Virus record (IMG/VR): IMGVR_UViG_3300048091_000417
Span: 1 to 59,715 of that record
Strand: one strand, 5' to 3'
Length of the DNA stretch: 59,715 nt
Origin: a virus
The notes beneath the pieces are model-generated. The model was not told the origin of the DNA. It ran no database searches and saw nothing but the letters and a program-made list of their open reading frames with translations. How positions within the stretch are numbered: the stretch's first letter is position 1; every line of letters begins with the position of its first letter. The position numbers and the translations under genes were made by a program. Below are positions 43,308 to 48,368 of this stretch, piece by piece.

Positions 43308-43553
43308 ATGACCGACTCTTCCGAACTGCAAGGCGAGATAACCGCCCTCTGCTGCTTTGTGGGTGCCTTGGCATCCACCCTGCCCCTTTCTTCTCAAATG
43401 AGGCTCTGGCCTGCGTTCGAGCAGAAGGCCAGTCAGTTGCGTGATCAGTTGAGCGATGAAGCTCTGCGTGGCTTTGAGCAGGCGACGATCTCGCTCAGCT
43501 CTAAGCCGCCATCTCGGCCCATGGGAACGATGGGCAAAGGGTTTCTTTCTTGA
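43308..43553 (+). CDS. Small hypothetical protein antisense to early operon, 81 aa
   Basis: AAGGA stands seven bases before the ATG. The product (MTDSSELQGEITALCCFVGA...) forms two or three helices (LWPAFEQKASQLRDQLSDEA) and looks like a real protein. It lies opposite the leftward early transcript and its end overlaps the 3' end of the cro-like gene by 53 bases. Transcription collision or antisense effects on the early genes are possible. Confidence 0.5.
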   Translation: MTDSSELQGEITALCCFVGALASTLPLSSQMRLWPAFEQKASQLRDQLSDEALRGFEQATISLSSKPPSRPMGTMGKGFLS

Positions 43554-43716
43554 ACTCACCCTGGGTCAGCGCCTCTGCCCGCTTCGCAACAATCGGAGAC
43601 ATCCCGTGCTTGCCACGAACCCAGCCAGAGACGGTGCTTTGATCAACCTTGAGCTTTTCGGCGGTGGTTTCCTGCGTCCCGAAGAAGGTGACGAGGTCCT
43701 GGAAAATAGTGTTCAT
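43501..43716 (-). CDS. Cro-like (YdaS type) repressor, 71 aa
   Basis: MNTIFQDLVTFFGTQETTAE and KLKVDQSTVSGWVRGKHGMS form a helix-turn-helix of the YdaS/Cro class; AKRAEALTQGEFKKETLCPS follows. GGAGGGG precedes the ATG at 43716. It is the first gene of the leftward early operon, divergent from the CI-like gene, and should bind the same triple operator with reversed preference. Confidence 0.82.
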   Translation of the reverse strand: MNTIFQDLVTFFGTQETTAEKLKVDQSTVSGWVRGKHGMSPIVAKRAEALTQGEFKKETLCPSFPWAEMAA

Positions 43717-43727
43717 ATCGCCCCTCC

Positions 43728-43803
43728 ATACGGGAATACCCATATAGTAGATTATGGGAATACCGATTTGCAAGGATATGGGAGCACCCGTAATACTCGC
43801 CGG
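43728..43803. promoter_or_regulatory. Immunity switch: triple operator and divergent promoters
   Basis: Three operator copies, GGGAATACCC (43732), GGGAATACCG (43756) and GGGAGCACCC (43780), are spaced exactly 24 bp. The hexamer TTGCAA at 43768-43773 is its own complement and can serve as -35 for both directions. Rightward: 17 bp to TAATAC (43791-43796) for the CI-like gene. Leftward: 18 bp to TACTAT (complement of 43744-43749) for the cro-like gene. Each promoter spacer contains one operator. Confidence 0.8.
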
Positions 43804-44469
43804 ATGGAATTTAAAGACCGTTTAAAAGCTGCCCGTCGACACGCGAATCTGAATCAGGCTGAACTGGCTCAACGAGCCGGGATCACGCAGACGTCGATTT
43901 CCGATCTCGAACGGGGAAAATCCAAAGCCACTGCCCATGTCGCGAAAATCGCGAGCGTTTGTGGCGTCGATGCCCTTTGGCTTTCAGATGGCAAGGGTGA
44001 AATGGTTCGCCGCGTGACTTCACAAGGTGATGAGCCCGCGAACGTGGCCATGGCAGCCCAGCCCAACATGATGTTCCGGTATCCGGTCATTTCATGGGTC
44101 GCCGCCGGCGCTTGGGCCGAAGCAGTTGAGCCCTACCCGCCTGGCTTTTCTGATCGTTACGAAATGTCTGAGTACGACTCGAAGGGCCCTGCCTTTTGGC
44201 TTGAGGTCAAAGGAGACTCAATGACATCGCCGGTCGGTCAGAGCGTCCCTGAGGGCAGCCTGATCTTGGTGGACACTGAAGCCGATGCCTATTCCGGCAA
44301 GCTAGTCATTGCAAAACTGTCCAACAGCGACAAAGCCACGTTCAAGAAACTGGTAGATGACGGTGGACGTCGGTATCTCAAGCCGTTGAACTCCGCCTAC
44401 CCTATGGAAGCGTGCGAGGACGATTGTCGCATCATTGGAGTAGTGGTCAGGGCTTTAATGAAGCTCTAG
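43804..44469 (+). CDS. cI: CI-like prophage repressor, S24 family
   Basis: The 221-aa protein has an N-terminal HTH (RHANLNQAELAQRAGITQTS, SISDLERGKSKATAHVAKIA) and a C-terminal LexA-type peptidase: cleavage site Ala-Gly in WVAAGAWAEA, catalytic Ser in KGDSMTSP and Lys in GKLVIAKL. RecA filaments would trigger self-cleavage and induction. The ATG lies only seven bases after the TAATAC -10, with no ribosome site, so the mRNA from this promoter is probably leaderless as in lambda PRM. Operators in the promoter allow autoregulation. Confidence 0.92.
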   Translation: MEFKDRLKAARRHANLNQAELAQRAGITQTSISDLERGKSKATAHVAKIASVCGVDALWLSDGKGEMVRRVTSQGDEPANVAMAAQPNMMFRYPVISWVAAGAWAEAVEPYPPGFSDRYEMSEYDSKGPAFWLEVKGDSMTSPVGQSVPEGSLILVDTEADAYSGKLVIAKLSNSDKATFKKLVDDGGRRYLKPLNSAYPMEACEDDCRIIGVVVRALMKL

Positions 44470-45750: not shown

Positions 45751-46002
45751 ATGCTTCAGCAGCCCGAGTTCACCCAGATTAAGCCCCGCTCCTACGAGCA
45801 GATCGGCCACCGCGTTAAAGAGATCATCAGCGATCCCAATGTTCAGAAGGTTCAGTTCGTTACCGTCTCCAGGTTGCCCAACGAGGGCAGGTCCGACTGG
45901 TGGAGGCTAATGAATGAGATCGCCAGCACCCAAGGCATTCGGGTGCAGAGGGTCGATGAAGACTCCTTCAAAATAGGCTGGCGAGAATACTTCGAAGCCT
46001 AA
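45751..46002 (+). CDS. DUF1654 family protein under SOS control
   Basis: The 83-aa product (SYEQIGHRVKEIISDPNVQK, SRLPNEGRSDWWRLMNEIAS, DGI-like QGIRVQRVDEDSFKIGW) fits DUF1654, a small family almost confined to Pseudomonas and its phages. GGAGGTT gives an ideal start. A terminator closes the gene, so it is a one-gene SOS regulon member between the immunity region and the early operon. Its biochemical role is unknown; damage control suggests a part in induction or anti-host take-over. Confidence 0.8.
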   Translation: MLQQPEFTQIKPRSYEQIGHRVKEIISDPNVQKVQFVTVSRLPNEGRSDWWRLMNEIASTQGIRVQRVDEDSFKIGWREYFEA

Positions 46003-46006
46003 ATAG

Positions 46007-46029
46007 AGCCCGCCAAGTGCGGGCTTTTT
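46007..46029 (+). terminator. Terminator of the DUF1654 gene
   Basis: AGCCCGCCAAGTGCGGGCTTTTTA, a GC-rich hairpin plus T run. Confidence 0.75.
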
Positions 46030-46047
46030 ACCGCCTGCCTATAAATT

Positions 46048-46090
46048 TATGGGAATACCCATTGACAGAAAATATGGGCACTCCTATATT
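46048..46090 (+). promoter_or_regulatory. Rightward early promoter with CI-type operators
   Basis: TTGACA (46062-46067), 17 bp, TATATT (46085-46090) is a near-consensus sigma-70 promoter. A perfect operator ATGGGAATACCCAT overlaps the -35 upstream side (GGGAATACCC 46051-46060), and a degenerate copy GGGCACTCCT (46076-46085) lies over the spacer. Their identity with the operators beside cI shows that CI/Cro control this promoter. Confidence 0.82.
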
Positions 46091-46114
46091 TCACCCATCG
46101 CAGCGACACACCGC

Positions 46115-46397
46115 TCCGAACCGCTCTTTAACAACCAGCGCCATGAACGACTACCCGGCCAAACCGGTTAGGTCACTCCCGGCACCATCGGTGGGAGATC
46201 AGTAAACCGAAGGAAACAAACCGCTGCGCTTGTAAGGCGACCGGCGCCAGATGAAAGCCATTGAGGGGCTCAGTCTGGCGAGGTGATGACCGAACTGTGC
46301 GAATGACCCTGACGGGCGCAGTGAGTGATAAGACTGAACGATTCACTGAAGCACCTGGGCGACCGGGTGCTTTGGGAATCCACTGGAGGAATAAGGC
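46115..46397 (+). ncRNA. boxA-bearing structured leader of early operon
   Basis: CGCTCTTTAACAA at 46122-46134 equals the rRNA/phage boxA consensus bound by NusB-NusE. Downstream are several hairpins: CTCCC-GGCACC-ATC-GGTG-GGAG (about 46177-46198), CGCCAGA...TCTGGCG (about 46245-46280), CAGTGAGT...ATTCACTG (about 46318-46347) and AAGCACC...GGTGCTT (about 46351-46374). No ribosome site and ORF pair is found before 46398. I infer an antitermination (nut/put-like) leader. Confidence 0.62.
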
Positions 46398-46583
46398 ATG
46401 AGCCTGAAAGATCAGGGCTACCGCTTCTGCGTCAGCCCGAACAAGCAAGACGCCAGATGGCTAGCGCCGAACATCTGGAAAGCGATGCACGCCGACTGGA
46501 TCGACGTGACGGACTGGTCAAGCGAGAAGCTGGTCGCGTTCGTGACGCCCGAGCCGCAGCAGGAAGAGCTGTTCGCAGCGTAA
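46398..46583 (+). CDS. First protein of rightward early operon, 61 aa
   Basis: GGAGGA precedes the ATG at eight bases. The protein (MSLKDQGYRFCVSPNKQDAR...) is small, with one tryptophan-rich segment (HADWIDVTDWSSEKLV) and an acidic tail. It is sandwiched between the boxA leader and the 888-nt structured stretch, so it may be a regulator acting on one of them. No family recognised. Confidence 0.6.
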   Translation: MSLKDQGYRFCVSPNKQDARWLAPNIWKAMHADWIDVTDWSSEKLVAFVTPEPQQEELFAA

Positions 46584-47471
46584 AAGCAGTCGGCATTCGC
46601 AAGAGTGCCCATCGGAGATTGATCGAAGCGTGCCCAAGCGGGCTGCAGCGCTAGGATCGCAAAGCCCCGTGAAGTTCCTGAGCCGGTATGAGCAAGACGG
46701 CCAATACCAAAAACGCGGCGGGAAGCAAGCGGGCCAGCGCCCCGGTGCTTCGATCAATCTCCGATGCAGATGCAGGACCGGGCTGACGGGCAAGTGTAAG
46801 ACCTGAGGGATCGCGGGAATCGTGGTCGATAGAGTGAGTAAGCGCCCAGATGGCCACGGCGAGTCCAAGAATAAGCGGCTGAAACCTTCGCCCCGGTGAA
46901 ACTCCGGTGTCACTAAGGCCGCTAATAGTCATGCCGGGATCAGCTCCGGCCATCTGCACCCCATTCCAGAATCCAGAGCGGGGATCAAGCCGCCTCCGCC
47001 ACGAGCGTCGGACAATACGGTCTTTGTGGTCACTCCAAAGCAGTGTTCGTTTCGTTCCGTGTGAGCGAAGGCCGCGCCACTGGGCCAAATCAACTGAGCA
47101 ACGACGGGGTGAATCGCCGTGACAGCCGGAGAGACGGCACTTATTCAACAGGTAGCCACTGCCTTCCCAGTGAGCGAGCGATAGGAGACACCGCCATGAA
47201 GTAGATCAACGATCCACCTGTGTGGTGCCGTAAGCCTGAAGGCGGCGCCGAACACCTGGACAGGCAGCGGAAAGCAGGGCCGTCGATGTCACCGCGCATT
47301 GGCCGGAAGGTAGGCCCACCCTTCGCAGCACATCGGAACGGTGCCCGCACACGCGGAACCCCCTACCCCATAACGACCGCATCGACAGGTGCCCGCGTGC
47401 TTCACGGCACGGGCTTGGTCACCTGCGCGGGCATCTGATCGATGCGGTTGAACAGCGCCTGGGAGGCGACC
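46584..47471 (+). ncRNA. Long structured non-coding region, candidate novel RNA
   Basis: No plus-strand frame with a ribosome site occupies these 888 bases. Strong pairing is visible: a perfect 20-bp helix between 46610-46629 and 46747-46766 enclosing about 117 bases; a 21/22-nt helix (one G-T pair, one bulged A) between 47377-47397 and 47426-47447; and local hairpins near 46591-46609, 46933-46950, 47104-47121, 47156-47173 and 47224-47250. It ends at the ribosome site of the next gene. A mini-frame ATG-AAG-TAG with AGGAG upstream occurs at 47196-47204. Alternatives are a decayed coding region or a membrane protein gene on the minus strand. Confidence 0.55.
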
Positions 47472-47888
47472 ATGAACTCATTCGCAAGAGCGCAAGCGCG
47501 CTGGGACAACATGCAGCCGGATGATGACTCCGGTCATGAAGAAGCGGCTCACCGCTGGATCGAAGACACAGCCGAGAACCTGATGCGCGGCTGTGACCTG
47601 GTGATTCGCCGTCGTCTCTGTTCCCCCATCGTCGTCGAGTACTCCACGTTCCTTTCCGACGTTCAGACTCATCTGAATCAGCGGCAGATCGACGATGAAG
47701 ATCCTGATGACTTCTTCGCTCAGCTAGTCATCGCGGCTCTTGGTGGTGCACCGGCCAAGACGTTTGCCTTGGGCCTGCTCGGTCCGGGACAAACGCCTAT
47801 GGGCACGCTGTTCGATATCGCCGTGGCGCTGGTCGAGCCGCACGCCGAAGCAGGCCTTGAGGCTGAAGCAGAGGATGCGGACCTATGA
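47472..47888 (+). CDS. Hypothetical early protein, 138 aa
   Basis: GGGAGG precedes the ATG. The product (MNSFARAQARWDNMQPDDDS...) is strongly acidic, with TAENLMRGCDLVIRRRLCSP in the middle and an Ala/Glu-rich tail (HAEAGLEAEAEDADL). It overlaps the next gene by four bases and opens a run of four coupled small genes. Function unknown. Confidence 0.62.
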   Translation: MNSFARAQARWDNMQPDDDSGHEEAAHRWIEDTAENLMRGCDLVIRRRLCSPIVVEYSTFLSDVQTHLNQRQIDDEDPDDFFAQLVIAALGGAPAKTFALGLLGPGQTPMGTLFDIAVALVEPHAEAGLEAEAEDADL

Positions 47889-48079
47889 GCCCGCACATCC
47901 TGATCGACGTGGCACTTGAGGGCCTCGCCGACGATGACTGTCCGCCCGGTAACGAGGTTCTCGTCCAGAAGATCATCACTGGGATGCTGACCGACTGCCT
48001 CATCACCATCCCAGAATTCCACCACTACTGTGAGCGCCTAGTGAAGATTCTCCAGCGGTGCGGGAGGCTTGCGGCATGA
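47885..48079 (+). CDS. Hypothetical early protein, 64 aa
   Basis: MSPHILIDVALEGLADDDCP starts in an ATGA overlap. Helical, with the C-terminal ITIPEFHHYCERLVKILQRC. Function unknown; coupled to both neighbours. Confidence 0.58.
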   Translation: MSPHILIDVALEGLADDDCPPGNEVLVQKIITGMLTDCLITIPEFHHYCERLVKILQRCGRLAA

Positions 48080-48255
48080 GTACGCCAATCGTGAAATCCC
48101 TGATCGACGAGCAGATCGAGGATGCACAGCAGCGAGTTCAAGTGCGCGGCGTCATCCAGCTGCGCCGCGAAATGCTGGTGTCTGAGCTTGAGCATCCGAT
48201 CAAGGCTGACTGGCTCAAACGTCGGCCCATGCCAAAGCCGCGGCCTTGCCCATGA
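48076..48255 (+). CDS. Hypothetical early protein, 59 aa
   Basis: MSTPIVKSLIDEQIEDAQQR starts in an ATGA overlap and forms a charged helix ending in a proline/arginine-rich tail (KRRPMPKPRPCP). Function unknown. Confidence 0.58.
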   Translation: MSTPIVKSLIDEQIEDAQQRVQVRGVIQLRREMLVSELEHPIKADWLKRRPMPKPRPCP

Positions 48256-48368
48256 CGGCCGCCCAGCGCCGCCGGCGCATCGTCTTTTGGCGCGGATCTT
48301 TCCCGGTCCTCGCCGCCTTCACCATCCTGATGCTTTCGCTGTCACTCGCTGAGCGCGTCACGAGCTAA
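48252..48368 (+). CDS. Tiny membrane protein, 38 aa
   Basis: A basic N-terminus (MTAAQRRRRIVFWRG) leads to one membrane helix (VLAAFTILMLSLSL). ATGA overlap with the previous gene. Its end overlaps the convergent gene by four bases. Confidence 0.55.
   Translation: MTAAQRRRRIVFWRGSFPVLAAFTILMLSLSLAERVTS

Follow-up and report, generated by a model that had tools for sequence, protein, structure and literature searches.

Nucleotides 46584–47471 of the phage record studied here (the window, 59,715 nt) constitute, as judged by comparison with homologous sequences, an array of separable RNA modules and not one giant RNA. Taken alone, this array architecture is well supported. The stretch has a modular structure with covarying base pairs, and its scaffold folds are kept while the inserts they enclose change fully. 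The predicted RNA architecture is absent from Rfam 15, and hundreds of other phages contain these scaffolds without annotation.

Genomic setting and layout of the array

The window harbours a CI-type repressor gene (43456–44469), which encodes HTH and S24 peptidase domains. Further along lies an early operon that includes an exonuclease-family gene and a Gam-like gene. Located between the repressor gene and these early genes are a putative promoter (one found by consensus scan versus 0.5 expected) and a boxA, and the first part of the transcript opened by them is almost free of genes. The array had been described in the first-pass annotation as following a boxA leader, which is borne out by the boxA at 46122. 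Part of the leader (46330–46400) matches other phages, occurring twice in locus L129, and the array may therefore start before 46584. The following features were detected (evidence or number of homologues in brackets):

46062–46090 (+), putative sigma-70-type promoter TTGACA-17-TATATT, at which the early transcript likely starts (consensus scan, 11/12)
46122–46132 (+), boxA CGCTCTTTAAC, antitermination site (only exact boxA in the window)
46398–46583 (+), 61-aa ORF separating the leader from the array (no family match; few relatives retain it)
46592–46609 (+), short hairpin with GCAA loop (GGCATTC-GCAA-GAGTGCC), directly 5' of module A (sequence and fold)
46610–46629 (+), module A, 5' arm of the outer helix (20 bp)
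46630–46746 (+), module A core (26 homologues)
46630–46646 (+), core hairpin with RAGC loop (module A alignment)
46648–46650/46658–46660 (+), core stem (module A alignment)
46653–46656/46676–46679 (+), core pseudoknot (module A alignment)
46666–46669/46719–46722 (+), core pairing (module A alignment)
46682–46685/46698–46701 (+), core pairing (module A alignment)
46730–46744 (+), last hairpin of the core (module A alignment)
46747–46766 (+), module A, 3' arm of the outer helix (20 bp)
46766–46957 (+), module B, a degenerate scaffold copy (scaffold frames elsewhere; insert shared with other loci)
46766–46772/46951–46957 (+), module B closing helix GCAGATG/CATCTGC
46776–46791 (+), module B 5' hairpin, loop GGGCTGAC
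46792–46932 (+), module B insert
46933–46950 (+), module B 3' hairpin, loop GATCAGCT
46958–47142 (+), poorly conserved segment from module B to module D (most of its length in 3–5 loci)
47143–47330 (+), module D: conserved leader with ribosome-binding site, two-codon gene and covarying hairpin (23 homologues)
47183–47187 (+), ribosome site AGGAG
47196–47204 (+), start-stop minigene ATG AAG TAG (Met-Lys-stop)
47373–47451 (+), terminal long hairpin, ending the array before the next gene (10 homologues)
47472–47888 (+), next early gene, PHROG 4801 of unknown function (PHROG match)

As stated in the first-pass annotation, 46584–47471 contains no plus-strand gene, the sole translated-looking frame being the two-codon one at 47196–47204. 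The stretch also proved to lie outside known Rfam families: the Rfam 15 gathering search of the window yielded no match, including none to GOLLD or ROOL, to C4 antisense RNA (RF01695) or to small RNA families, and a permissive Rfam search of 46000–48300 retrieved only unrelated families below threshold. C4 is present elsewhere in the E. coli locus L005, outside the array. ARAGORN detected neither a tRNA nor a tmRNA in 46000–47500 (no complete cloverleaf or tRNA-like domain), and the window's own stretch harbours no T-arms, initiator-type anticodon stems, tmRNA-like tags or tRNAs. Mimicry of rRNA was considered and rejected, since no module aligned locally with the E. coli rrnB operon any better than shuffled sequences did.

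Structure and covariation of the modules

The two long helices noted earlier could both be confirmed. The first (46610–46629 with 46747–46766) is perfectly paired over 20 bp, encloses 117 nt and reaches 22 pairs once G-U pairs are counted; about 4e-7 such helices are expected by chance in 888 nt (simple arithmetic). The second (47377–47397/47426–47447) is as described and forms in the minimum-energy fold. The folding energy of the whole region is only modestly better than that of shuffles (z -1.83; none among 20 shuffled versions was equally low) and homologues were therefore relied on instead. The predicted structure is proven by covariation, while energy alone would not suffice. Compensatory changes are present in the helices among homologues, bearing out the earlier claim of a structured phage RNA region.

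Module A combines a core containing the RAGC hairpin, the near-invariant CCAATACC...CGGCGGGAA and the pseudoknot with a variable outer helix, the arm sequences of which differ among relatives with pairing kept. In the alignment of 26 distinct homologues, 88.9 % of cells are paired in the structure including the pseudoknot, and 17 pairs covary with both sides changed. Changes on both sides account for 117 cells versus 46 in shuffles, and pairing falls to 28–49 % when partners are slid by 1–3 columns. Some stems sit one column off in this alignment, and pairing was also read per sequence: 25 of the 26 homologues form 4–6 pairs in the pseudoknot (the script's pattern failed to catch the other one), and 3–5 pairs form in the last hairpin. 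Homologues stem mainly from Pseudomonas and enterobacterial phages. Unannotated blastn matches were obtained in the Pseudomonas phages Aurca01 and Medea1, which share later modules, and in a Serratia plasmid and Citrobacter phage phiNP, which share the module A core. The motif search retrieved 66 IMG/VR stretches and 12 genome stretches; two of the latter, from Arthrobacter (L080) and Chlorobiota (L075), were chance matches to the short pattern and were removed after alignment. Diverged copies recovered from other genomes with a covariance model are likewise enclosed by such helices. Overall, module A is a sparse accessory, found in 4/248 and 2/250 genomes of two families (seed genomes included, stricter filters).

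Module B belongs to a scaffold family composed of a variable closing helix and two hairpins with complementary loops placed around a variable insert. Its usual 5' hairpin is GCGC-AGGCTGAT-GCGC and its usual 3' hairpin GCCGG-AGATCAGCA-CCGGC, with the loops complementary through GCTGAT/ATCAGC. Read by eye, the window's copy conforms to the scaffold, with a closing helix and complementary loops (GCTGA/TCAGC), save for one mismatch in the 5' stem GACC/GGGC (GACC for GCCC), and was not listed by the strict pattern scan. Its insert recurs elsewhere in canonical scaffolds (L180, L136, L249, L172). Among 91 complete frames, 45 distinct closing helices were counted, and the inserts (26–162 nt, median 74 nt) are almost all different. 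Compensatory stems (GCGC/GCGC, GCCC/GGGC, GCAC/GTGC, GTGC/GCAC) occur among 104 relaxed frames, a scan that demands paired stems and hence displays stem variety, not the rate of pairing.

Module D, common to some 35 loci, is closed by the pairing CCACTGCC/GGCAGCGG and contains 6 pairs with changes on both sides among its 23 homologues. Behind its leader, an ORF of 1–3 codons is located at 46 of 62 loci (34 MK*, 10 MD*, 1 M* and 1 MKR*) and a normal gene at the other 16, with no ORF of 4–29 codons at any of the 62. From this length distribution, the two-codon gene seems to be under selection. Phage lambda bar minigenes are two-codon start-stop genes behind a good ribosome site. The minigene at 47196–47204 resembles them in both respects and differs in that it reads Met-Lys-stop, or elsewhere Met-Asp-stop, and is embedded in a covarying RNA module. 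Of the 24 pairs in the terminal hairpin, 4 show changes on both sides among its 10 homologues.

Related arrays in other phages

The first-pass annotation had envisaged one large RNA. The stretch instead comprises at least four modules, the parts of which occur independently in other phages. Relatives possess A without B, B without A, or D alone, and the combinations differ; many phages carry just one or two of the parts. This independent exchange argues against one giant RNA and against any conserved protein. A third scaffold, C (ACAACAGGTAAGAGCAYTG ... CARTGCTCTTTCCGTTGT), is common in enterobacterial phages and likewise surrounds unrelated inserts. The closing helices of other modules measure 13–27 bp.

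Records with a match to the 5' motif of scaffold B comprise 229 from phages and 579 from plasmids (E-value limit 1). Carriers include a P1-like phage, HK629, D3, the N4-like lytic phage IME11, the Ackermannviridae phage Magnus and the BASEL phage Bas77. Most of the sites are unannotated, and the rest are annotated mostly as hypothetical proteins. The motif was detected in 12 of 246 genomes of enterobacterial species; the reversed control motif had no match. Related modules are present in 3022 of 5426 E. coli genomes. E. coli arrays adjoin the repressor gene.

Pieces resembling tRNA occur in a minority of inserts and also in related arrays. Against chance expectations of 0.035 and 0.01, T-arm stem-loops were identified in 5 of 91 B inserts and 3 of 37 C-type inserts, respectively; the C-type scan covered both strands, so that the 37 correspond to about 20 distinct modules. 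Many arrays harbour an initiator-tRNA-type anticodon stem-loop GGGCTCATAACCC outside full tRNAs. Free-standing copies (GGGCTCATAACCC or GGGTTCATATCCC) are located within array modules at L004:4254, L005:5355, L263:2716 and about 25 other loci. In addition, related arrays of P1-like phages, IME11, Magnus, Bas77 and others are headed by tmRNA-like tag frames (ANDDVVLMAA, ANDDLMMVAA, ANDDLMLMAA and ANDEQFLAVA versus ANDENYALAA in E. coli). Sites of tag frames are L263:1626, L266:2306, L267:2261 and L268:2151, with others in L178, L194, L223 and L227; no tmRNA gene was detected by ARAGORN in the four tag-bearing loci L263, L266, L267 and L268.

Full tRNAs are located in or beside several related arrays. 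In the array of a Serratia plasmid, L003:3735–3861 matches the tRNA model with 46 bits and a large insert, while ARAGORN calls no tRNA there. In lytic phage IME11, about 2 kb (L266:1471–3556) are unannotated and apparently structured, and hold scaffold C, scaffold B, tRNA-like pieces and tRNAs.

Possible function and comparison with known systems

The first-pass annotation had listed antitermination, packaging, decoy and counter-defence as possible roles. Packaging and antitermination are disfavoured by the hypervariable inserts and by the unrelated genome positions of the scaffolds, which lie ahead of the holin in HK629 and amid tRNAs in D3 and also occur in lytic phages. A decoy or counter-defence role stays the best guess. 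Our leading, still tentative, explanation is that the early transcript would give rise to small RNAs with a trans role, the likeliest being that of decoys against defences or toxins that target translation. A single transcript from the promoter at 46062, sustained by boxA, would be cleaved within or close to the long closing helices; RNase III, which cuts the stalks of pre-rRNA, is the simplest candidate. The freed modules, shielded by their closed and loop-locked scaffold, could then act in trans. The variable insert would serve as bait (a tRNA arm, an initiator-type anticodon stem, a tmRNA-like piece or another shape) and so titrate or inhibit some factor of the host, the likeliest being a defence nuclease or toxin that targets RNA. 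That the protective frame stays fixed while its contents change fast points to an arms race; the tRNA-like pieces among these contents point to immunity or toxins directed at translation as the target. Phage tRNAs are known to counter tRNA-cleaving defences (PMC11555353, PMC10264068). Against the decoy model stands that only a minority of inserts is tRNA-like and that the window's own module A and B insert resemble no known RNA.

Regulatory small RNAs of the DicF or IsrK style, which would be processed out of a prophage operon and base-pair with mRNAs or sRNAs of host or phage, appear rather unlikely. DicF sets a precedent for a prophage sRNA from an early-type operon (PMC5069750, PMC10448788) and the neighbourhood of E. 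coli arrays to the repressor gene would fit, but the modules are rigid, pair heavily with themselves and offer little conserved seed in single-stranded form, conservation resides in fold and scaffold, and no Rfam sRNA matched in the window. A purely cis-acting leader that guards the early transcript from Rho or controls elongation, in the manner of boxA/nut or the HK022 put RNA, is judged unlikely. The put RNA works in cis on RNA polymerase close to the promoter and needs neither boxA nor a phage protein. The array directly follows the promoter and boxA and is co-directional with the downstream genes, a position compatible with such action, and put is a nascent RNA able to exert it (PMC9378689). 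However, this reading is at odds with the hypervariable inserts and with the varied scaffold positions given above. Moreover, by a strict pattern just 16 of 176 related arrays have a boxA in the 1 kb upstream (none downstream, none on the opposite strand), and the leader is thus not a general feature, which counts against the decoy model too.

One giant ornate RNA assembling into a particle, in the manner of the homo-oligomeric GOLLD and ROOL, is improbable: the size near 800–900 nt, the phage location and the proximity of many relatives to tRNAs recall these two (PMC12286853), yet Rfam gave no match and the parts are exchanged independently, many phages having only one or two. The mosaic exchange, tRNA fragments and full tRNAs of related arrays could also be read as decayed tRNA-gene debris and recombination scars with no function at the RNA level. 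This is very improbable, being largely refuted by covariation, as compensatory changes, strict scaffold conservation and a start-stop gene that stays two codons long though its codon changes all speak against it. The chance of a minus-strand protein gene (46651–47148) is negligible. Its 165-aa frame is open in the window but has no Pfam or PHROG match and stops at differing places in many homologues, and the substitutions are explained by pair changes; this candidate was rejected, and no reading frame, the minus-strand one named earlier included, is conserved in homologues.

Extending the decoy explanation, phages of many proteobacterial hosts might share an RNA display system in which fixed self-locking scaffolds carry swapped baits, among them arms of tRNAs, anticodon stems of the initiator type and segments of the tmRNA tag. 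Every bait would neutralise a different immune nuclease or toxin directed at translation. Though speculative, such a system would parallel, at the RNA level, the islands of anti-defence proteins. It appears that phages possess a large set of RNA tools that has been overlooked and perhaps serves to disarm bacterial defences. An architecture this common and yet absent from Rfam would mean that phage biology has a large blind spot, extending even to model phages such as D3. If the inserts are baits for immune enzymes, the host defences that a phage can overcome would be predictable from the content of its array, and the scaffolds could serve to present RNA inhibitors. Searches confined to open-access journal papers found no description of such arrays, an absence of little weight.

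Among known systems, GOLLD and ROOL are large and elaborate RNAs of phages and prophages; their function is unknown, many lie close to tRNAs, and GOLLD has variable and conserved regions (PMC12286853). The array shares with them the elaborate folds and, in its relatives, the frequent vicinity of tRNAs, but differs in its exchangeable modules of about 80–200 nt, common scaffolds, changing inserts and lack of an Rfam match. Phage tRNA islands that evade tRNA-targeting defence (PMC10264068, PMC11555353) are alike in that related arrays include or adjoin true tRNAs; most array modules, however, are not tRNAs, and the tRNA pieces are embedded in scaffolds foreign to them. DicF and other prophage sRNAs (PMC5069750) also derive from a prophage operon, but DicF is a single sRNA base-pairing with mRNAs, in contrast to highly self-paired modules in series. 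Racr RNA anti-CRISPRs are small phage RNAs that block immunity by mimicking a host RNA, which is the role proposed here for the array modules, with the difference that Racrs mimic CRISPR repeats (PMC10651486).
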